A stretch of DNA of 64,000 bases from Komagataeibacter saccharivorans. GTDB taxonomy: Bacteria; Pseudomonadota; Alphaproteobacteria; Acetobacterales; Acetobacteraceae. The position numbers and the translations under genes were made by a program. Location of the stretch: positions 1 to 64,000 of the forward strand of contig NZ_NKTY01000010.1 in NCBI RefSeq assembly GCF_003207825.1, given 5' to 3'. The notes under the pieces were generated by a model. It saw only the letters and a program-made list of their open reading frames with translations. It was not told the DNA's origin and made no database searches. Numbering within the stretch: position 1 is the first letter of the stretch; each line of letters starts with the position of its first letter. This document shows, piece by piece, positions 23,119 through 33,205 of the stretch.

Positions 23119-23934
23119 TCAGAAATCAGGCAATGTCGGGGCCAGATGCCCACCCTGACGCACCGGGGCCATGCGACGGGCCAGGCCGGTCGCATCATCG
23201 GTTTCAACCATCATGCCCGCGATACTGGCTTCCCCTTCGGCAGGTTGCAGGCGCTCACCGGGCATCTTGCGCACGAAACGCGCAATGGCCGCATCCTTGC
23301 CCATGCCGATCACACTGTCATAATCGCCGCACATACCCGCATCGGTCTGGAACGCCGTGCCACCGTTGAGGATACGGTGATCCGCCGTAGGCGTGTGGGT
23401 ATGGGTTCCGATCACAAGCGAAACCCGACCGTCGAGGAAATGGCCCATGGCCCATTTCTCGCTCGTGGCTTCGGCATGCACGTCCACCACGGCGGCCTGT
23501 ACGGTCACGCCCAGCCGGTGGCGTGACAGGATATCCGTGACCGCCCGGAAGGGATCATCCATTGCATCCATGAACTGACGGCCCATGACACTGGCGACCA
23601 GCGCCTTGCGCCCGTCCACCAGTTCCACAACCACGCTCCCCTGCCCCGGCGTGCCGGGGGGGTAATTGGCGGGTCGGATAATGCGCGGTTCGCTGCCGAT
23701 ATGGCCGATCAGGTCACGGCGGTCCCAGCTATGGTTGCCCAGGGTGATGACATCCGCTCCCCCTTCCAGCAGATCCCGGCCAATGGCGGGGGAAAGGCCG
23801 AAGCCATGGCTTGCATTTTCGCCATTCACCACCACAAGGTCGAGGGCAAGGTCACGCCGCAGGGTCGGAAGACGGGAAAGAACAGCCTCGCGCCCGACAC
23901 GGCCCACGATGTCACCCAGAAACAGAATTCTCAA
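23119..23934 (-). CDS. YmdB-family metallophosphoesterase
   Basis: A 271-aa calcineurin-like phosphoesterase (TIGR00282 family). Di-metal ligands are visible in order: GDIVGRVGR (residues 7-15), VNGENASHG, the GNHSWD motif, VDVHAEATSEK, and GTHTHTPTAD. Homologues such as Bacillus YmdB act on 2',3'-cAMP and influence biofilm decisions; the role here is inferred only. The gene begins 14 bases after the stop of the cyclo-ligase gene, so both are likely on one transcript with zapA and 6S RNA. Confidence 0.9.
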   Translation of the reverse strand: MRILFLGDIVGRVGREAVLSRLPTLRRDLALDLVVVNGENASHGFGLSPAIGRDLLEGGADVITLGNHSWDRRDLIGHIGSEPRIIRPANYPPGTPGQGSVVVELVDGRKALVASVMGRQFMDAMDDPFRAVTDILSRHRLGVTVQAAVVDVHAEATSEKWAMGHFLDGRVSLVIGTHTHTPTADHRILNGGTAFQTDAGMCGDYDSVIGMGKDAAIARFVRKMPGERLQPAEGEASIAGMMVETDDATGLARRMAPVRQGGHLAPTLPDF

Positions 23935-23948
23935 GAAAACAGCCTTTT

Positions 23949-24554
23949 TTACCGCGCCCGCCTGTCACCACGACACCGGATCAGTTCACGTTCGGTCACG
24001 ATCGCGGGCAAAGCCACGTCATACAGCCCCGTGGGAATGCATGTCACTTCCTGAAAGGACAGTCCGAACCCCATGGCGCGCGCACGCGGTAGCGCGGCCA
24101 GCGTGCGATCGTAATACCCACCGCCATATCCCAGCCGCATGCCCCGCCTGTCAAACGCCAGCAGCGGCACGCACACCACATCGGGCTGCACCGGCGGGCC
24201 TTCGGGGTGGCAGGTGCCATGATGGCCCGGCTGCATGACGCAGTCCGGCTGCCACAGGCGGAAGGTAAGCGGGCGACGTTTCGCGGTAACTTCTGGCAGG
24301 GCGATGCACAGGCCATCGGCATGAAGGGCCTGCATCACGGGGCGCAGGTCGCTTTCACCGGGCAGCGGCCAGACCAGGGCGATGCAGTCCCCCGCCCCGG
24401 CCATGCCACGCAGGGTACGCACCATGCGCCGGTGCAGGCTGTATTCAGCCGCTTCCCGGTCGGGGCTGGAAAAGAAGGTGCGCCTGCGCGCGGACATGAC
24501 GCCACGCAGGGCCTGCTTGGCGTGCGTGACAGGCCAGGATTCAGGAGAAGTCAT
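23949..24554 (-). CDS. 5-formyltetrahydrofolate cyclo-ligase
   Basis: ATP-dependent return of 5-formyl-THF to 5,10-methenyl-THF, about 201 aa. The nucleotide/folate motif GYGGGYYDRTL is near the C-terminus, preceded by DVVCVPLLAFDRRGMRLG, and the N-terminal KQALRGVMSARR helix matches the family. A GTG at 24575 is in frame but would lie inside the 6S RNA; the ATG at 24554 sits just beyond the 6S 3' end and is preferred. The zapA - ssrS - cyclo-ligase order is widely conserved in proteobacteria. Confidence 0.92.
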   Translation of the reverse strand: MTSPESWPVTHAKQALRGVMSARRRTFFSSPDREAAEYSLHRRMVRTLRGMAGAGDCIALVWPLPGESDLRPVMQALHADGLCIALPEVTAKRRPLTFRLWQPDCVMQPGHHGTCHPEGPPVQPDVVCVPLLAFDRRGMRLGYGGGYYDRTLAALPRARAMGFGLSFQEVTCIPTGLYDVALPAIVTERELIRCRGDRRAR

Positions 24555-24567
24555 GAAACCATAATAC

Positions 24568-24725
24568 GGAGCCACCGTGGCCGTTGGTCGGATCAGCCCT
24601 CCCGGACCTGCTGACGCAGGTGGGCGCCAGGTAACGTGACCACGATCACGACAGTGCCAGCTCCCTAGGAAGTGCTTATCGGCCCAGGGGTTGAATCATG
24701 CCTGACGCACCCGGTAGCCCCGCCC
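24568..24725 (-). ncRNA. ssrS: 6S RNA
   Basis: The 178-base gap between zapA and the cyclo-ligase gene holds the expected 6S RNA on the minus strand. A terminal stem pairs GGGGCTACCG (24712-24721) with CGGTGGCTCC (24568-24577) over all ten positions, with wobbles. Inside are the segments CCCCTGGGCCGATAAGCACTT, GGAGCTGGCACTG and the GTGGTCACGTT arm typical of alphaproteobacterial 6S. 6S RNA mimics an open promoter and sequesters RNA polymerase with the housekeeping sigma factor in stationary phase. Ends are estimated to within about 10 bases. Confidence 0.85.
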
Positions 24726-24732
24726 TTTCATT

Positions 24733-25074
24733 CTAGTCCTCTTCCATGGCGGCTGCAATGCTTTCCGCACGCTCGACCAGATGGGCAAGCTGCTCGGTCC
24801 GCCGCTCGTTCTCGATTCGCGCCTGCCTGCCCTGTGCAAGCTGGTGGGCGGTATCGGAGGACATCTTTTCCGCCTTCAGATCATGGATCTCATCGGCCAT
24901 GAGCAGGGCCGCAAGGGCCAGAAGCCGCCCTTCCCCGCTATGACCACCCAGCGCATGGATACGCTCGATCCGGCGTTCGACTTCCTGCGCCATGGCCTGA
25001 AGATGCTTCTCCTGCCCTTCCTTGCATCCCACGGGATAGGAAAAGCCGTTGATGCGTACTGTCACCTGCGCCAT
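24733..25074 (-). CDS. zapA: Cell division protein ZapA
   Basis: A 113-aa FtsZ-ring stabiliser. The N-terminal MAQVTVRINGFSYPV strand pair and the following RLLALAALLMADEI helix are ZapA signatures; the rest is a long charged coiled coil (about 60-113). GGGGAGGG precedes the ATG. It starts 3 bases after the upstream gene, and lies directly before 6S RNA and the cyclo-ligase, an arrangement that supports the assignment. Confidence 0.92.
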   Translation of the reverse strand: MAQVTVRINGFSYPVGCKEGQEKHLQAMAQEVERRIERIHALGGHSGEGRLLALAALLMADEIHDLKAEKMSSDTAHQLAQGRQARIENERRTEQLAHLVERAESIAAAMEED

Positions 25075-25077
25075 GCG

Positions 25078-25392
25078 CTAGCCCTCCCCACCGGTCAGTC
25101 GACCTTCATCACCCAGCACATCGCGCACGCGGGCGATCAGGGCGTCGATATTGGCGGCAAGCGCCTGCAGGTCCGTATCCGGGGCGGACGGACGGCCCAC
25201 GGATGCCAGTTCGGCACGACGGTCAAGGGCAAAGGCAATGCGGTTCAGCGCCAGTTCAAGGCGGTCGGCCGGGTTCTGGTCATGATGCCGGTTCTGGCCG
25301 TTTTCCGCAGGGCCTGTATCAGCAGGCCCGGCATCCGAAGGCGTGTGCGCCATGTCGTGCTCCGGTGGCATGATAATGTCAGACACGTTCAT
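25078..25392 (-). CDS. Small helical protein upstream of zapA
   Basis: About 104 aa, with a disordered Pro/Ala-rich first half and a heptad-like helix in the second half (ADRLELALNRIAFALDRR, then LAANIDALIARVRDVL), reminiscent of DUF4164-type proteins found beside zapA in alphaproteobacteria. The stop is 3 bases from the zapA start, so they are certainly cotranscribed; a role as a ZapA partner in division is inferred. The start is uncertain: ATG at 25392 overlaps its own AAAGG, so the GTG at 25386 may be used instead. Confidence 0.6.
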   Translation of the reverse strand: MNVSDIIMPPEHDMAHTPSDAGPADTGPAENGQNRHHDQNPADRLELALNRIAFALDRRAELASVGRPSAPDTDLQALAANIDALIARVRDVLGDEGRLTGGEG

Positions 25393-25448
25393 CCTTTCCC
25401 GCATTCCTCCCCTTGAACTGATCGCGCGATGGCGTTTCAACGTCAAGC

Positions 25449-25868
25449 ATGATCGACAAACAAGACCATTGTGTGCCCGACCTTCCGCATGTGGTCATTA
25501 GCTGCGCGCGGGATCTGGCGCAGGTCATGGCGGTGTTGGCCTCATTACGTGTGGACTGCGCAGTGGTTTCGCCACCGGGGGCGGGGTGTTTCATGGGGGT
25601 GCCATGGTGGGCCGCCCTTACGGCTGGCTGCCCCCTGCCTTCCATGCTGGACTGCGGACAGGCCGCGGGCCATGCCGCAGCGGCCCTGCGTGCGGGCATG
25701 AAGCATGTGATTGTCAGCGCAACGCCCGCGCAGCAACATGCGCTTGCATCGCTGGCGCAGGCCACGGGCGGCCATGTGCTGTCCCGCCGCCCCGTGGCGC
25801 TGGACCTTCCGGCGCGTAACGCATGCGACACGCTGGAACGATACCTGTGCGCCCGTAACCTGACGTGA
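25449..25868 (+). CDS. Conserved-looking hypothetical protein before thiE
   Basis: A 139-aa protein with an alternating strand-helix pattern (PHVVISCARDLAQVMAVLASL, then KHVIVSATPAQQHALASLA), suggesting a small Rossmann-like or TIM-barrel-fragment fold. It is rich in alanine and cysteine, with no recognised catalytic motif. It starts 56 bases from the divergent zapA operon and precedes thiE by 58 bases on the same strand. No function is assigned. Confidence 0.6.
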   Translation: MIDKQDHCVPDLPHVVISCARDLAQVMAVLASLRVDCAVVSPPGAGCFMGVPWWAALTAGCPLPSMLDCGQAAGHAAAALRAGMKHVIVSATPAQQHALASLAQATGGHVLSRRPVALDLPARNACDTLERYLCARNLT

Positions 25869-25926
25869 CACGACGCCCATGCGGGGGGTGTTCGCCGCCC
25901 GCGCGGTGGCATAGGATCGACCCGAC

Positions 25927-26553
25927 ATGACCGATTGCCAGCTTTACCTCATCACGCCCGAATCGCTCGATCCCGTGGCGTTCGCCCCCCTTCTGGCCGA
26001 AGCGCTGGATGCCGGCCCCGTTGCCGCCGTCCAGCTTCGCCTGAAAAACGTGACGGACGACGCCATCCGCCATGCCGTGGCGGTGCTCCAGCCCGTGGCG
26101 CATGCGCGCAATGTCGCCTTCATCCTCAATGACCGCCCTGATCTGGCCGTTGCCTGCGGCTGTGACGGCGCGCATGTGGGTATGGAAGACATGGACGTGG
26201 CCGAAGCCCGCCGTGTGCTGGGCGATGACCTGCAACTGGGCGTGTCATGCTATGACAGCCGTGACATGGCCCTGCGCGCGGGTGAGGAAGGGGCTGACTA
26301 CATAGCCTTTGGCGCGTTCTTCCCTTCACCCTCCAAGGAAACGGAAGTCCGTGCCGATCCGGCCCTGCTGACGTGGTGGAGCAGCATGATCGAACTGCCG
26401 GTCGTGGCCATTGGCGGCATAACGCCAGCCAACTGCGCGCCGCTGGTGCAGGCGGGGGCGGATTTCCTGTGCGTCATCAGCGCCGTCTGGTCCCATCCCG
26501 ATGGGCCCGGCGCTGGTGTGCGGGCGATGAACGCCGCCATCGACGCCGCCTGA
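25927..26553 (+). CDS. thiE: Thiamine phosphate synthase
   Basis: Joins 4-amino-5-hydroxymethyl-2-methylpyrimidine pyrophosphate with the thiazole phosphate to give thiamine monophosphate; a 208-aa TIM barrel. Family features are LYLITPE at the start, AVQLRLKN (pyrophosphate-binding region), FILNDRPDLAVACGCDGAHVG, the GAFFPSPSKE loop and VVAIGGITPANC. No other thi genes and no TPP riboswitch-like sequence lie nearby; the upstream gap is only 58 bases. Confidence 0.9.
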   Translation: MTDCQLYLITPESLDPVAFAPLLAEALDAGPVAAVQLRLKNVTDDAIRHAVAVLQPVAHARNVAFILNDRPDLAVACGCDGAHVGMEDMDVAEARRVLGDDLQLGVSCYDSRDMALRAGEEGADYIAFGAFFPSPSKETEVRADPALLTWWSSMIELPVVAIGGITPANCAPLVQAGADFLCVISAVWSHPDGPGAGVRAMNAAIDAA

Positions 26554-26603: not shown

Positions 26604-27626
26604 CTATGCCCCGTCGCCCATCCACTGCACATCGGCAATACGGGGCGTGCCGGCAGCCAGCATCACCAGCCGGTCAAAGCCCAGCGCGATGCCTGCGCAC
26701 GGCGGCAGGCTGTCCAGCGCCGCAAGGAAGGCTTCGTCCAGCTTCCAGTCCAGTCCCGCAACGTCGGGATACAGTCCGGCCCGCCGTGCGCGGTCTTGTG
26801 CAAAACGCTGGCGCTGTTCGGTGCTGTCGGTCAGTTCCTCGAACGCATTGGCAAGCTCGATTCCGCCTGCATAAAGCTCGAAACGCAGCGCCACGCGCGG
26901 GTCTGCCGGGTTCCGGCGGGCAAGGGCGGCCTGACTTGCGGGCCAGTGCGTCAGGAATGTGGGCCGCGTACGACCGATATGCGGTTCGACGCAGGCCATC
27001 ATCAGGCGGAAGAACAGGTCCTCCCACGTCTCGTCCTTACGTAATGCGCAGCCCGCGGCTGCGGCCAGAGCCGCGGCATCCCCTTCGGTTGCCAGAATAT
27101 CCACGCCCGCATGACGCAGGAATGCTTCCGCCACGCTCAGCCGTTCAAACGGGGCTGCGATAGCGATGGTATCCGTCCCCACCCCGACACTGGGGGGCAG
27201 GACCGCACGCAGCAGGGTTTCCGTCTCGTCCATCAGCGTCGCAAGCGTCGCGCCGGGCCGGTACCATTCCAGCATGGTGAATTCATGCGCATGCAGCCTG
27301 CTGCCTTCCGCGTTCCGCCACACGCGCGCAAGCTGGTACACGGGCAGGCCCGTTGCCGCGACGATGCGCTTCATGGCGAATTCGGGGCTGGTATGGAGCC
27401 AGAGCGGCTCAACCGTGCCGTCCACCCGCTCGCGTTCCGTGCGGAACACCTTCAGATGTACTTCCTCACCCGGAGTCGGAACCGCGTAGGGCGTTTCCAC
27501 TTCCATGTAGCCACGGGCATCGAAAAACGCCCGCACGCCACGCAGCACAAGGTTGCGCCGCACAAGGAAGGGCAGCCGGTCGGCAATGCGGGCCGGATCG
27601 GGACGGGAACGGACAGAATCGGGCAT
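26604..27626 (-). CDS. epmA: EF-P--(R)-beta-lysine ligase
   Basis: A 340-aa lysyl-tRNA synthetase paralogue without the anticodon-binding domain, which attaches (R)-beta-lysine to elongation factor P. Class II synthetase motif 2 is RVWRNAEGSRLHAHEFTMLEW and motif 3 is GIALGFDRLVML, with ELANAFEELTD before it as in EpmA/GenX. GGAGA about 9 bases before the ATG at 27626 decides the start; the frame extension to 27977 overlaps epmB. It is divergent from epmB with 51 bases between, so both may share one regulatory region. Confidence 0.93.
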   Translation of the reverse strand: MPDSVRSRPDPARIADRLPFLVRRNLVLRGVRAFFDARGYMEVETPYAVPTPGEEVHLKVFRTERERVDGTVEPLWLHTSPEFAMKRIVAATGLPVYQLARVWRNAEGSRLHAHEFTMLEWYRPGATLATLMDETETLLRAVLPPSVGVGTDTIAIAAPFERLSVAEAFLRHAGVDILATEGDAAALAAAAGCALRKDETWEDLFFRLMMACVEPHIGRTRPTFLTHWPASQAALARRNPADPRVALRFELYAGGIELANAFEELTDSTEQRQRFAQDRARRAGLYPDVAGLDWKLDEAFLAALDSLPPCAGIALGFDRLVMLAAGTPRIADVQWMGDGA

Positions 27627-27677
27627 GGGACGGGATCTCCGGTTGCAGCGAATACGGCGGCGCAGTACAGCCCCGGC

Positions 27678-28757
27678 ATGACATCCACGGTCAACCCTTC
27701 CACACCCCGGCGCACGGACGCCCGCCGCACGCTGCGCAGCGTGGCGGACCTGCTTGATGCGGGTCTGGTCACGCCAGAACAGGCACCGGAACTGGAACAG
27801 GTGGCCCGGCAGTATGCCACCGCCATTCCCCCCGCTTTTGCCGCCCTGATCGAGACGCCCGACGACCCGATCGCGCGGCAGGTCATCCCCGATGCCGCCG
27901 AATGCCATACCGAAGCGGTGGAAGACCCGGACCCCATCGGTGATGACGCCCTTTCCCCCGTACCGGGCATCGTGCATCGCTATGCCGACCGCGCGCTGCT
28001 CAAACCGCTGCTGGTCTGCCCGCTATACTGCCGCTTCTGCTTCCGCCGCGAACATGTCGGCCCCGGCGGCGGGGTACTGGATGATGCGGCGCTGGCCCGC
28101 GCGCTGGACTGGCTGCGCACGCATACGGACATTCATGAAGTCGTGATGACGGGGGGTGATCCCCTCATGCTCTCGCCACGCCGCATGCGCGCCATCATCG
28201 CGGCCCTGGAAACGATGGATCATATCCACACCATCCGCATCCATACCCGCGTGCCGGTGGCGGACCCCGCGCGTCTGGACGACGCCATGGCCGATGCGCT
28301 GGACACCACGCGCTCCATGTGGGTGGTGGCGCATATCAATCACGCCCGGGAACTGACACCGCAGGCGCGCGCGGCCATCCGCCGGGTGCAGGCCCGCGCC
28401 ATTCCCGTTCTGGGCCAGTCGGTCCTGCTGCGCGGGGTCAATGACACGCCCGATGCGCTGGAAGCCCTGCTGCGCGCGCAGGTCTCGGCCCGCATCCGCC
28501 CGTATTACCTGCACCAGCTTGACCCCGCACCTGGCACCGCGCGTTTCCATGTACCCATCCGCGAGGGGCAGCGCCTGCTGGCTTCCCTGCGTGGGCGGGT
28601 CACGGGTATTGCATGGCCAACCTATGTGATCGATATTCCGGGTGGGTACGGCAAGGTACCCATAGCGCCCGACTACCTGCATACCGGGGCGGATGGCTAC
28701 CTGCGGGTCACGGCACCCGATGGCGCAATCCACCGGCTTGCACGGGAACGGGGCTGA
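27678..28757 (+). CDS. epmB: EF-P beta-lysylation protein (lysine 2,3-aminomutase type radical SAM)
   Basis: A 359-aa radical S-adenosylmethionine enzyme converting L-alpha-lysine to (R)-beta-lysine, the substrate of EpmA. The cluster cysteines are Cys114, Cys118 and Cys121 in CPLYCRFCFRRE; the motif VVMTGGDPLMLSPRR and the PLP-lysine segment GGYGKVPIAPDY near the C-terminus match the KamA family. Catabolic KamA is longer; together with epmA and efp on either side, the EpmB role is the best reading. The first ATG giving the family N-terminus is at 27678. Confidence 0.92.
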   Translation: MTSTVNPSTPRRTDARRTLRSVADLLDAGLVTPEQAPELEQVARQYATAIPPAFAALIETPDDPIARQVIPDAAECHTEAVEDPDPIGDDALSPVPGIVHRYADRALLKPLLVCPLYCRFCFRREHVGPGGGVLDDAALARALDWLRTHTDIHEVVMTGGDPLMLSPRRMRAIIAALETMDHIHTIRIHTRVPVADPARLDDAMADALDTTRSMWVVAHINHARELTPQARAAIRRVQARAIPVLGQSVLLRGVNDTPDALEALLRAQVSARIRPYYLHQLDPAPGTARFHVPIREGQRLLASLRGRVTGIAWPTYVIDIPGGYGKVPIAPDYLHTGADGYLRVTAPDGAIHRLARERG

Positions 28758-28843
28758 AAAGACAGCGCGCAACCTTGCCCTTCCGCGCCGGGGACGCTAG
28801 AAGCCGAACCGCCATACTTCCCACAACCATTACAGGGACCACC

Positions 28844-29410
28844 ATGAAGCAGCAGGCAAACCTGATCCGCGCCGGACAGGTTATTGAGCACGACGGCCGT
28901 CGCTGGACGGTCCTGAAGCAGCAGATCATCACCCCGGGCAAGGGCGGCGCGTTCATCCAGGTGGAAATGCGCGACCTCAAGACCGGTAACAAGACCAACG
29001 AACGCTGGCGCACCGCCGACACCGTTGAACGCCTGATGACCGAGGAGAAGGAATACACCTACTCCTACATGGACGGCGACAACATCGTGCTGATGGACCC
29101 CGAGACGTTCGAACAGCTTCTGCTGCCGCTGGAACTGCTGGGCGATCAGGCTCCGTTCCTGCAGGACAACATGACGCTGGTCCTGAACCTTGTCGAAGGC
29201 GACCCGGTCGGTGTTGTCCTGCCCGCGCAGGTCACGCTTGAGGTGGTCGAGGCCGATCCCGTGGTCAAGGGCCAGACGGCAAGCTCGTCCTACAAGCCCG
29301 CGCGCCTGTCCAATGGCGTCAAGACCATGGTGCCCCCCTTCATCGAAGCGGGTGAGCGCATCGTGGTCCGCACCGAGGACAGCACCTACGTCGAGCGCGC
29401 CAAGTCCTGA
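28844..29410 (+). CDS. efp: Elongation factor P
   Basis: Relieves ribosome stalling at polyproline stretches; 188 aa in three beta-barrel domains. The modified lysine is Lys33 in TPGKGGAF, matching a protein beta-lysylated by EpmA/EpmB. Further signatures are KVEMRDLKTGN-like QVEMRDLKTGNK, TYSYMDGD, and the C-terminal VPPFIEAGERIVVRT. AGGGA precedes the ATG at 28844. It lies 86 bases after epmB, so substrate and modifying enzymes are grouped. No epmC (hydroxylase) is adjacent. Confidence 0.97.
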   Translation: MKQQANLIRAGQVIEHDGRRWTVLKQQIITPGKGGAFIQVEMRDLKTGNKTNERWRTADTVERLMTEEKEYTYSYMDGDNIVLMDPETFEQLLLPLELLGDQAPFLQDNMTLVLNLVEGDPVGVVLPAQVTLEVVEADPVVKGQTASSSYKPARLSNGVKTMVPPFIEAGERIVVRTEDSTYVERAKS

Positions 29411-29503: not shown

Positions 29504-30331
29504 GTGGCAATGCGACTCTCTCCCCATATGACGGTGATGCAGAACGCTGCCCAGAAGGCTGCACGCCGTCTTCTGCGTGACTTCAACGAAGTCGAGCAGC
29601 TTCAGGTCAGCATCAAGGGCCCTGGCGATTTCGTGTCGCAGGCCGACCTGCGGGCCGAAACCACCATTCACGAGGAACTGGCCCGCGCGCGCCCCGGCTA
29701 TGCCTTCCTGATGGAAGAAAGCGGTGCGTCGGGAAGCGAAGGCTGGACGTGGCGCTGGGTTGTCGATCCGCTGGACGGCACGACCAACTTCCTGCACGGG
29801 CTGCCGCACTGGGCCATTTCCATCGGCCTGCAGCGCCGCCTGCCCGATGGCACGATCGAGATCGTGGCCGGTCTGGTCTACAACCCCGCCGCCAACGAGA
29901 TGTTCTGGGCCGAAAAGGGCGTGGGCGCCTTCCTCAACGATCGTCGCCTGCGCGTCTCCGCCCGTCGTTCAATGCAGGAATCGCTGTTCGCCACCGGCAT
30001 CCCGTTTGCGAAGGTTTCAGCACGCAACCGCCTGTCCTTTGCCCGCACGCTGGGCGCGCTCATGCCACAGGTGGCCGGCATCCGCCGATTCGGCGCAGCA
30101 GCACTCGACCTCGCATGGGTCGCGGCAGGCCGGTATGACGGTTACTGGGAACTGGGCATCAAGCCGTGGGACTGCGCCGCCGGTATCCTGCTGGTGCGTG
30201 AGGCCGGTGGTTACGCCACCAATCCCGCGGGCGAAGACCTGAACGACCTGCCCGCGTCGATCGATGCGGTGGTGGGCAACCCGCACCTGCACGCCCAGTT
30301 GCGCGAACTGGTCGCCAGCAGCATCGACTGA
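29504..30331 (+). CDS. suhB: Inositol monophosphatase family protein (SuhB-like)
   Basis: A 275-aa magnesium-dependent phosphatase of the IMPase/SuhB family. The metal sites are EESG (Glu near residue 72), WVVDPLDGTTNFLHG (about 86-99), and GIKPWDCAAGILLVREAGG near the C-terminus. SuhB also acts in rRNA transcription antitermination in E. coli; whether that holds here is unknown. The start is GTG at 29504, with ATG two codons later also possible. It follows efp by 93 bases. Confidence 0.9.
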   Translation: MAMRLSPHMTVMQNAAQKAARRLLRDFNEVEQLQVSIKGPGDFVSQADLRAETTIHEELARARPGYAFLMEESGASGSEGWTWRWVVDPLDGTTNFLHGLPHWAISIGLQRRLPDGTIEIVAGLVYNPAANEMFWAEKGVGAFLNDRRLRVSARRSMQESLFATGIPFAKVSARNRLSFARTLGALMPQVAGIRRFGAAALDLAWVAAGRYDGYWELGIKPWDCAAGILLVREAGGYATNPAGEDLNDLPASIDAVVGNPHLHAQLRELVASSID

Positions 30332-30400: not shown

Positions 30401-31162
30401 ATGCAGCATCTATCCCTTCCCTTCTTCCGACGTTCCCTGCATGGGCTGGCCCTGCTTGGTGTCGCCACATGCGGGCTGTGCGGTCTGGCCACGCCCACGC
30501 ATGCGCAGGTTACGACCAGCAGGAGCGCGCTTGATGCCCTTGGCGCGCCCCAGCATCCCGCAGCCACCCCGCATGAGGGTGGCACAACCGCGACCGCAAC
30601 GGGTCCGGGCGGGGATGTACCGGGCAGCCATGCCCCCGCAAGCGCCATAGCCTCCCCTGCCGCCCTTGCATCGCTGCCACCAATCGCCACGAAGCCGCCT
30701 GACAATCCCGTGCTCCGGCCGCCGGAACTGCATGTCCCGCAGCATCCCTTCCCGCCCCCGCCGGAGGTCAAGGCCAATCCTGATGCCCGTGGACGCGCGG
30801 AACGGATTCCCGGCGGCACGCGCCTGCACTTCACCAGCCAGTCGGCGGACATGAATTCCCGCATGATTACGGCCCTGCAAACATTTGCCACAGTCATGGC
30901 GAAACTGCCCGATCAGCATGTGATCGTGGCCGCGTATGGCGAGGGACGGCAGGATGATCCGTCCACGCCCCGCCGTGTTGCGCTGTCGCGCGGGCTGGCG
31001 GCGCGTTCGGTGCTGATCCATGCGGGCGTGGCCCCCACGCGCATCTATGTCCGCGCCATCGGCCTCCCCGATGAAAACGCGCATGGTGCGGGCGCGGATT
31101 GTATTGACGTCACCCGTTCCGGTGTGGTGGCCTCGGACACTACAGGTTCATCTGCGCATTAA
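30401..31162 (+). CDS. OmpA-family periplasmic protein
   Basis: A 253-aa secreted protein: a signal peptide (hydrophobic 15-30, cleavage near THAQ at 33-36), a long Pro/Ala-rich linker (about 40-125), and a C-terminal OmpA-like peptidoglycan-binding domain in which MNSRMITALQTFATVMAKLP and the STPRRVALSRGLAARSVLI helix replace the usual NxxLSxxRA region. The typical arginine/aspartate peptidoglycan contacts are only partly conserved. It starts the three-gene module with a MotA-like and a MotB-like protein, 12 bases upstream of the former. Confidence 0.75.
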   Translation: MQHLSLPFFRRSLHGLALLGVATCGLCGLATPTHAQVTTSRSALDALGAPQHPAATPHEGGTTATATGPGGDVPGSHAPASAIASPAALASLPPIATKPPDNPVLRPPELHVPQHPFPPPPEVKANPDARGRAERIPGGTRLHFTSQSADMNSRMITALQTFATVMAKLPDQHVIVAAYGEGRQDDPSTPRRVALSRGLAARSVLIHAGVAPTRIYVRAIGLPDENAHGAGADCIDVTRSGVVASDTTGSSAH

Positions 31163-31174
31163 GGAAATCACTGC

Positions 31175-32221
31175 GTGACACGTCCGACGACCTATCTTGT
31201 ACGGGTTCTGCTGTTTCTTCTGGCGGTCGGGGGTGTCACAGCCCTGCTTTCCTCCACACTTTATCAGGCATTCTGCAACAATCCCTATCTCGACGGGCTG
31301 ATCGTCGGCATCCTCCTGCTGGGGATCGGGTGGAACATCACCATGATCCTGCGCCTGGTGCCCGAGGTCCGGTGGGTCAACATCCTGCGCCATCCACGTG
31401 ACGGACTGACGACACCGCCGCCACCGCGCCTGCTGGCCCCGATGGCGTCCATGCTGGCAACGCACGAGAAGGGCCGCAGGCTGACCCTGTCCGCCCCGGT
31501 CATGCAGTCCCTGCTGGACAGCCTGTCCGCCCGCCTGGACGAAGGACGCGAACTGTCGCGTTACCTGACGGGGCTGCTGATCTTCCTTGGCCTGCTGGGC
31601 ACGTTCTACGGCCTGCTGCTGACCGTGGGGTCCATTGCGGATGTGATCGGCAACATGAGCGTGGGCAGCGGCGACATGAACGTCATGTTCGACCAGCTCA
31701 AATCCGGGCTGGCCGGACCGCTGCATGGCATGGGCACGGCGTTTTCGGGGTCCATGTTCGGGCTGGCGGGCGCGCTGGTTCTGGGCTTTCTGGACCTGAC
31801 GGCAGGACAGGCGCAGACCCGGTTTTTCAACGAACTGGAAGAATGGCTGGCCAGCATCACGCGCCTGTCTGCCGGCGGGCTGCAGGTTGGCGGCAGTGAC
31901 GCGACGGTTCCCGCCTATGTGCAGGCACTGCTTGAGCACACGGCCGAGAACATGGACAAGCTTCAGGTCCTGCTTTCACGCAGCGAGGAGACACGCGCGC
32001 AGGAACACCGCCTGCTGACCGCGCTGAACGACCGGCTGGTGCAGATGACCGACAGGAGTGGTGAAGACCACCTGCAGGGCATCGAATCCCTTCTGGCGCG
32101 GCTGGTACAGGAATCGGCGGCGGGACGGGAGCAGATGGTGACAGACATCCGCAATGACCTGCGCCTGCTCGCGCGCACCATTGCTGCCAGCGCCCCCGGA
32201 AAGAACCCTTCCGCCTCCTGA
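31175..32221 (+). CDS. MotA/TolQ/ExbB-type proton channel protein
   Basis: A 348-aa inner-membrane protein. Predicted segments are TM1 (about 7-28), TM2 (40-60), TM3 (131-151, LTGLLIFLGLLGTFYGLLLTV) and TM4 (187-207, GTAFSGSMFGLAGALVLGFL). The TM3-TM4 pair with a G-T-F-Y-G-L motif is the MotA/TolQ/ExbB core that lines the ion path. A cytosolic domain lies at 61-130 and the C-terminal 130 residues are a coiled coil. The start is GTG at 31175 with AAGGAA upstream. It is linked to the MotB-like gene, 21 bases downstream. Confidence 0.82.
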   Translation: MTRPTTYLVRVLLFLLAVGGVTALLSSTLYQAFCNNPYLDGLIVGILLLGIGWNITMILRLVPEVRWVNILRHPRDGLTTPPPPRLLAPMASMLATHEKGRRLTLSAPVMQSLLDSLSARLDEGRELSRYLTGLLIFLGLLGTFYGLLLTVGSIADVIGNMSVGSGDMNVMFDQLKSGLAGPLHGMGTAFSGSMFGLAGALVLGFLDLTAGQAQTRFFNELEEWLASITRLSAGGLQVGGSDATVPAYVQALLEHTAENMDKLQVLLSRSEETRAQEHRLLTALNDRLVQMTDRSGEDHLQGIESLLARLVQESAAGREQMVTDIRNDLRLLARTIAASAPGKNPSAS

Positions 32222-32242
32222 CCGCATATTAAGGTTCATCCC

Positions 32243-33205
32243 ATGGCGCGCCGCTCCCGTCGCTCGATCCGTTCCGAACTCAACGCCTGGCCCGGCTATG
32301 TCGATGCGCTGTCAACGCTGCTGATGGTCATCATCTTCGTGCTGCTTGTTTTCGTGCTGGGGCAGGCTTTCCTGTCGGTAGCACTGAACAAGCGCCAGCA
32401 GGCGCTGACCCAGCTTGAACATGAAGTTGCCAAACTGGGGCAGATGCTCTCGCTTGAGCGCAGTCATACCAGCGCGCTCCAGCATGAGGTCGCAGGTCTG
32501 CAGAAAACCCATGAGGCGGACGCCGCGACCGCAACATCCCTGACCGCGCAGCTTAACCAGCAGACCAGCGAGCGCGACAACGCGCAGGCCCGCGCCACCG
32601 CGCTGGATGAGCAGGTCGCCCAGCTACGCCAGCAGCTCAGCGCGCTTTCCACCGCGCTGGATGTGACGGAAAACGACGTGCGGGAGCGCGACAGGAAGAT
32701 TGACGCGCTTGGCATGCAGCTCAATGTCGCGCTGGCGGAAAAGGTGGAACAGCTACAGCATTACCGTTCCGAATTCTTCGGGCGGCTGCGCGACGTATTG
32801 CAGGGCCACAAGGGCGTGCAGATCGTAGGCGACCGCTTTGTGTTCCAAAGCGAGGTGCTGTTCCCCCCCGGCGGGGCCGAGCTGTCACCCGAAGGGGTGA
32901 AGGAGATCAGGATTCTGGCGCAGACCCTGCGGCAGATCGCGCAGCAGATTCCGTCTGACGTACCATGGATACTGCGCGTGGACGGCCATGCCGACCGTCA
33001 GCCGATCCACACCGCCTTCCCCAGCAACTGGGAACTGTCATCCGCCCGCGCCATCACGGTGGTCAAGCTGCTGATTGCGGAAGGGATCGATCCGCACCAT
33101 CTGGCCGCAACCGGCTTTTCGGATTACCAGCCGCTGGACCACGGCACGACACAGGAAGCCTTTGCCCATAACCGGCGCATCGAATTCCGCCTGACGGATC
33201 GCTAG
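32243..33205 (+). CDS. MotB-like protein with OmpA peptidoglycan-binding domain
   Basis: A 320-aa partner for the MotA-like channel. A single membrane segment (about 22-45) directly follows PGYVDALSTLLMV, whose Asp21 is in the position of the proton-carrying aspartate of MotB. A coiled coil at about 48-175 forms a stalk, and the C-terminal OmpA domain contains VDGHADRQPI, NWELSSARAITVVKLLI and NRRIEFRLTD, all standard peptidoglycan-binding signatures. No flagellar genes are nearby, so a role in envelope mechanics or a rotary motor of non-flagellar type is likely. Confidence 0.85.
   Translation: MARRSRRSIRSELNAWPGYVDALSTLLMVIIFVLLVFVLGQAFLSVALNKRQQALTQLEHEVAKLGQMLSLERSHTSALQHEVAGLQKTHEADAATATSLTAQLNQQTSERDNAQARATALDEQVAQLRQQLSALSTALDVTENDVRERDRKIDALGMQLNVALAEKVEQLQHYRSEFFGRLRDVLQGHKGVQIVGDRFVFQSEVLFPPGGAELSPEGVKEIRILAQTLRQIAQQIPSDVPWILRVDGHADRQPIHTAFPSNWELSSARAITVVKLLIAEGIDPHHLAATGFSDYQPLDHGTTQEAFAHNRRIEFRLTDR

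Follow-up and report, generated by a model that had tools for sequence, protein, structure and literature searches.

Positions 30401 to 33205 of the plus strand of the window (the whole stretch of 64,000 nucleotides of Komagataeibacter saccharivorans DNA analyzed here) carry three co-directional open reading frames (ORFs), and the module that they form is a class-wide alphaproteobacterial operon, not an oddity of the host genome. Its products are motor-type parts, namely, an OmpA-like protein, a MotA/TolQ/ZorA-like channel protein, and a MotB/ZorB-like protein, and the module is independent of flagella. Homology and conserved residues suggest a non-flagellar ion-driven motor of the MotAB/TolQR/ZorAB type, presumably with 5:2 stoichiometry, proton flow, and rotation. 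On balance, we consider it somewhat probable that this is a proton-driven motor fixed to the peptidoglycan by its MotB-like dimer, that the OmpA-like protein acts as an adaptor in the periplasm, and that the machine serves envelope or division upkeep.

The intergenic gaps between the three ORFs are 12 and 21 bp, and the first ORF starts 69 bp after suhB (Table 1). An earlier note, made from the sequence alone, had described a tight cluster encoding a secreted OmpA-type protein, a four-helix MotA/TolQ-type protein with a coiled-coil tail, and a MotB-type protein with a conserved aspartate and a peptidoglycan-binding domain. The cluster is real, and the ORFs, profile matches, structural model, and alignments confirm this description of the three products; the gene order, moreover, is shared by Acetobacteraceae and the wider class beyond what chance would give. 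The immediate neighbors identified with Pfam are suhB, efp, a TPR protein gene, and a LysR regulator gene. Elongation factor P (EF-P) is itself adjoined by what look like its lysylation genes (window positions 26604 to 29410). The polyproline linker of the OmpA-like protein (30542 to 30784) is the kind of sequence whose translation EF-P helps, and efp is nearby.

Table 1. Features of the three-gene module and its upstream neighbors in the window
Feature	Position	Strand	Basis
Class II tRNA-synthetase-like gene near efp	26604-27977	minus	
Radical SAM aminomutase gene near efp	27111-28757	plus	
efp, elongation factor P, conserved upstream neighbor	28844-29410	plus	Pfam, locus comparison
suhB, inositol monophosphatase family, conserved upstream neighbor	29504-30331	plus	Pfam, locus comparison
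OmpA-like periplasmic protein, 253 aa	30401-31162	plus	ORF, weak Pfam match, C-terminal model with OmpA/Pal/MotB fold
Signal peptide, residues 1-35, putative cleavage THA^Q	30401-30505	plus	Sequence; cleavage site predicted
Mature N-terminal short motif VTTSRSALDAL, family pattern V-x-V-[DN]-x-x-[AV]-L	30509-30541	plus	Motif count
Proline-rich linker, includes PPPP	30542-30784	plus	Sequence; pLDDT mostly <70 over much of linker
Degenerate OmpA-like domain, Arg197 kept, GHxD aspartate lost (AYGE)	30788-31120	plus	Alignment, model
MotA/TolQ/ZorA-like channel protein, 348 aa, GTG start	31175-32221	plus	ORF, PADLOC, alignment, model, Foldseek, tree
Four predicted membrane helices, residues 8-26, 41-59, 134-152, 188-206	31196-31792	plus	Alignment, AlphaFold model
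Predicted C-terminal coiled-coil tail of channel, residues 247-339	31913-32191	plus	Two long helices (H247-292, H298-339) in model, moderate pLDDT
MotB/ZorB-like protein, 320 aa, NCBIfam NF006543	32243-33205	plus	ORF, NCBIfam, PADLOC, alignment
Asp21, candidate proton-carrying residue at membrane helix	32303-32305	plus	Invariant in 39/39 orthologues
Predicted periplasmic coiled coil, residues ~46-175	32378-32767	plus	Coiled-coil profile matches, sequence
Peptidoglycan-binding OmpA-type domain, intact GHAD (248-251) and Arg269	32828-33202	plus	NCBIfam, alignment

The MotB-like protein belongs to the NCBIfam family NF006543 (“peptidoglycan-binding protein”), against which it scores 480.8 bits (curated cut-off, 305), and it also has a Pfam OmpA match (E = 4e-14). 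Along with Asp21, the GHxD motif and the ligand-site arginine are invariant in all 39 orthologues aligned. Some genomes have two high-scoring copies of this protein (C1:1993784 and C1:2780189 in G249, contigs C4 and C23 in G134, and contigs C14 and C5 in G241).

The Pfam OmpA-like match of the OmpA-like protein falls below the gathering cut-off (E = 3e-4), and its C-terminal domain is predicted by modeling to have an OmpA/Pal/MotB fold. Among 37 orthologues, the LSxxRA arginine is kept in every one, whereas the GHxD aspartate is kept in only 1 (with glutamate in 3), in contrast to 39 of 39 for the MotB-like protein. Because 36 of 37 members have lost this aspartate but retain the fold and the arginine, peptidoglycan binding in the usual mode is unlikely. 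A role as a canonical peptidoglycan anchor was rejected on these residues, and the peptidoglycan-anchored cap that the earlier note had envisaged for this protein is, to judge from the alignment, unlikely to form in the canonical manner. Most orthologues have a hydrophobic N terminus ending in A-x-A/Q, i.e., an ordinary signal peptide, and the short motif that follows occurs in 24 of 39 orthologues (0.1 expected in shuffles), although these sequences are related and not independent. In Azospirillum-type loci (L123, L125, and L129), the OmpA-like protein is apparently a lipoprotein (lipobox VTAC/VAAC).

The channel protein is a weak Pfam MotA_ExbB match (E = 0.006, below the gathering cut-off), and a search of its sequence profile against the PDB returned coiled-coil noise only. 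In the AlphaFold model of the channel (mean pLDDT, 81), the helices are consistent with four membrane spans followed by a cytoplasmic coiled-coil tail of two helices, and a cytoplasmic loop of 74 residues lies between the second and third transmembrane helices (TM2 and TM3). Residues 138 to 144 read LGLLGTF, and the GLLGTF stretch, which is invariant in an alignment of 43 orthologues, resembles the GLxGTxWG motif in a membrane helix of TolQ/ExbB (GLFGTVWG in Escherichia coli ExbB). The channel is 94% identical to its counterpart in a same-genus genome and 93% and 89% identical to those of Komagataeibacter rhaeticus and K. xylinus, respectively.

Of 120 Acetobacteraceae genomes, 106 carry the channel gene, and NF006543 matched above its cut-off in 86 of 142 genomes sampled throughout Alphaproteobacteria. 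The order efp-suhB-ompA-motA-motB recurs across named alphaproteobacterial genera; in a set of 84 loci, many of which run into the end of a contig, the counts were 80 for motB, 69 for ompA, 59 for suhB, and 58 for efp, and two further loci have a visible but diverged ompA. Co-conservation of the three genes, a check that the earlier note had proposed, is therefore borne out in the same order across the family and the class. Since ompA is absent from four loci (L115, L133, L138, and L144), where suhB adjoins motA and leaves scarcely any space or none for an ompA gene, ompA is not strictly required. A phylum-wide sample gave few strong matches outside Alphaproteobacteria (genomes G320, G388, G422, G403, and G528), and in the three out-of-class loci whose neighborhoods were read, motB was found and ompA and suhB were not, which suggests horizontal transfer. 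One locus (L212; G515:C23), from a family (f13) in which no other sampled genome has the module, encodes a diverged channel homologue of 573 aa; an OmpA-like ORF lies immediately upstream of it, and efp is close by. Loci L086 and L088, at the two ends of one metagenome-assembled contig (JAMFRO010000072.1), hold the same module in opposite orientations with equal identity, probably an assembly artifact.

In 23 of 30 genomes from different families that have both on one contig, the module lies within 30 kb of tolQ, at a spacing of 14 to 26 kb. One such tolQ-to-module block, read with Pfam, comprises tolQ, ruvB, yebC, ymdB, tkt, gap, pgk, thiE, and efp, and most of its ORFs were matched in the blocks of other genomes. 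The recurrent gene order, often at this distance from tolQ, thus points to inherited housekeeping DNA, i.e., a core locus, and the neighborhood may be a frozen relic of an ancient gene order, not a sign of shared function. The statement that nothing flagellar or Tol-Pal is near the module stands for the host, where tolQ is on another contig (C73) and FlhA is absent from the genome, but, as regards tolQ, does not extend to most of the other alphaproteobacterial families in which the distance could be measured. Window positions 23119 to 26553 keep ymdB, a 5-FTHF cyclo-ligase gene, zapA, and thiE of the old alphaproteobacterial tolQ block.

Several lines of comparison place the channel closest to ZorA. 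When the three module proteins were scanned with PADLOC, ZorA (E = 9e-12) and ZorB (E = 3e-21) were matched at a distant, weak but significant level; six genuine ZorA3 proteins each score >500 bits, so that the module stands at the level of a sibling rather than a member. A Foldseek search with the channel gave ZorAB, TolQ, and ExbB as the best matches, with flagellar MotA at rank 49 and none passing an E value of 0.001. Quick trees of the A subunits group the channel with ZorA, apart from TolQ/ExbB and flagellar MotA (SH-aLRT support of 97 and of 94 on a subset). ZorA as the nearest relative is well supported but not proven. The module and ZorAB share a four-helix channel with a short cytoplasmic loop and a cytoplasmic tail, as well as a B subunit made of one membrane helix and an OmpA-type peptidoglycan-binding domain. 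In contrast to ZorAB, the module has a much shorter tail (~140 aa after TM4 versus ~520 to 590 aa in ZorA), a long periplasmic coiled coil, and an extra OmpA-like protein, and it sits in a core chromosomal gene order, nearly universal in Acetobacteraceae, with no recognized defense effectors alongside.

The similarity to TolQR(-Pal)/ExbBD extends to the membrane helix motif described above, the envelope context, and the frequent proximity to tolQ. However, the module differs from these systems in having four predicted membrane helices, an OmpA-type B subunit, and a separate lineage in the trees, and the same genomes carry a separate TolQ. With the host TolQ encoded elsewhere and the channel in its own lineage, the module is not part of Tol-Pal. 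Replacement of Tol-Pal was likewise rejected because TolQ is still present in nearly all genomes (over the cut-off in 74 of 80).

How such a motor would work can be outlined from its relatives and its conserved residues. Five channel subunits are expected around a dimer of the MotB-like protein, whose intact C-terminal domains would sit on the tip of the coiled-coil stalk and hold the dimer to the peptidoglycan. Protons passing via Asp21 would turn or flex the channel ring against this fixed axle, and the five cytoplasmic coiled-coil tails, bundled as in ZorA, could pass the movement or a signal to a cytoplasmic partner. The OmpA-like protein would act through its N-terminal motif and proline-rich linker as a periplasmic adaptor and not as an anchor. 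The most likely job of the module would be envelope upkeep at the poles or possibly at division sites, alongside Tol-Pal and not in its place. The earlier note had already proposed a proton-driven envelope machine; the parts and their co-conservation uphold a non-flagellar module of the proton motor type, and the class-wide operon, the kinship with ZorA, and the existing data on orthologues were missing from that reading.

The main rival, which we judge unlikely, is a sensor or signaling complex in which, as is thought for ZorAB, a change in the distance between peptidoglycan and outer membrane would open the channel and be reported by the tails. Its appeal comes from the ZorA and ZorB kinship, from the cytoplasmic coiled-coil tail of the channel, and from the importance of peptidoglycan binding, the tail, and ion flow in Zorya (PMC11890865). 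However, no conserved effector gene was found downstream of motB, and the shortness of the tail relative to that of ZorA also argues against this reading.

Published data bear on the upkeep motor that we prefer through Komagataeibacter hansenii ATCC 23769, whose motA (348 aa) and motB (321 aa), matched by length, gene order, and description, are very probably orthologues of the module genes. These were overexpressed singly (PMC6570709) and together as motAB (PMC6315621). Overexpression gave longer cells and chains with septum-like regions (motA+ and motB+, PMC6570709; motAB+, PMC6315621), together with more colony spreading, thicker fibers, and looser pellicles (PMC6570709, PMC6315621), and green fluorescent protein (GFP) fusions of MotA and MotB were each polar or bipolar (PMC6570709). 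Because the data come solely from overexpression, with induced chaperones and plasmid-borne GFP fusions, these phenotypes may be indirect. The passages of PMC6570709 consulted treat the pair as flagellar-type MotA/MotB and contain no description of the ompA gene, the suhB/efp gene order, or a relationship to ZorA; the authors note that K. hansenii is without flagella and that the partner is not known.

The changes in fibers, pellicles, and spreading would also fit a machine whose special task is cellulose export, the assembly of ribbons, or spreading over surfaces. We consider this very improbable because the module is found in many alphaproteobacterial families, including genomes of <1 Mb that are unlikely to make cellulose, and because these effects plausibly follow from the longer cells, as the authors of the overexpression work themselves argue.

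An anti-phage defense system of the Zorya type, to which the PADLOC matches to ZorA and ZorB might point, is if anything even less credible. The matches are weak beside those of all six true ZorA proteins, and no zorC-, zorD-, or zorE-type gene was recognized among the Pfam-identified neighbors or in the conserved gene order, the adjacent genes being those named above. A mobile defense system would also not be expected to sit in a vertically conserved core gene order or to occur in nearly every genome of the family. The scores and the neighborhood together thus disfavor this candidate.

The annotation names “MotA” and “MotB” suggest a flagellar stator or its remnant. With flagellar MotAB/PomAB, the module shares a four-helix A subunit and a B subunit with a membrane aspartate and an intact, flagellar-type peptidoglycan-binding domain, and the increased colony spreading of K. 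hansenii (PMC6570709) is in line with such a role. However, the module lacks the large torque-interface loop (~74 aa versus 115 to 130 aa in most flagellar MotA proteins) and has a different tail. A search of the host genome (3.35 Mb, reported 100% complete) found no FlhA. Across 80 alphaproteobacterial genomes, 21 had the module without FlhA (including three genomes of 0.7 to 0.9 Mb), 17 had FlhA without the module, 35 had both, and 7 had neither, with no association between the two (Fisher P value = 0.61). Flagellated relatives, moreover, carry a separate, true flagellar MotA beside the module channel. As to clustering with flagellar stators, which the earlier note had named as a refutation, the best trees separate the channel from flagellar MotA, but an AU test on a 39-row subset did not reject a joint clade (P value = 0.168), so that exclusion is not firm. 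Given the missing FlhA in the host and the lack of association across the class, a flagellar stator or remnant is disfavored and is the least probable of the readings.

Bacterial motors of this kind are so far known from flagella, Tol, Ton, gliding/type IX secretion, and Zorya defense. We tentatively entertain the possibility that the module is a third envelope motor, ancestral in Alphaproteobacteria and additional to Tol and Ton, and a housekeeping sibling of the Zorya motor with a shared origin, in which the pseudo-OmpA adaptor would link the motor to a periplasmic or outer membrane partner. Searches of the open-license literature turned up no study devoted to the three-gene module. According to a 2025 survey of stator homologues, which leaves ZorAB unplaced, for later, the OmpA-type domain is missing from non-flagellar B subunits, and a search of the survey text for Alphaproteobacteria found no mention (PMC12505986); the B subunit of the module, with its OmpA-type domain, does not fit that statement. 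If our reading is true, annotation has hidden an envelope machine under flagellar names, and the module would offer a non-defense relative for the origin of ZorAB. It would then be a general envelope machine in most sampled alphaproteobacterial families, one kept even in genomes of <1 Mb without flagella.
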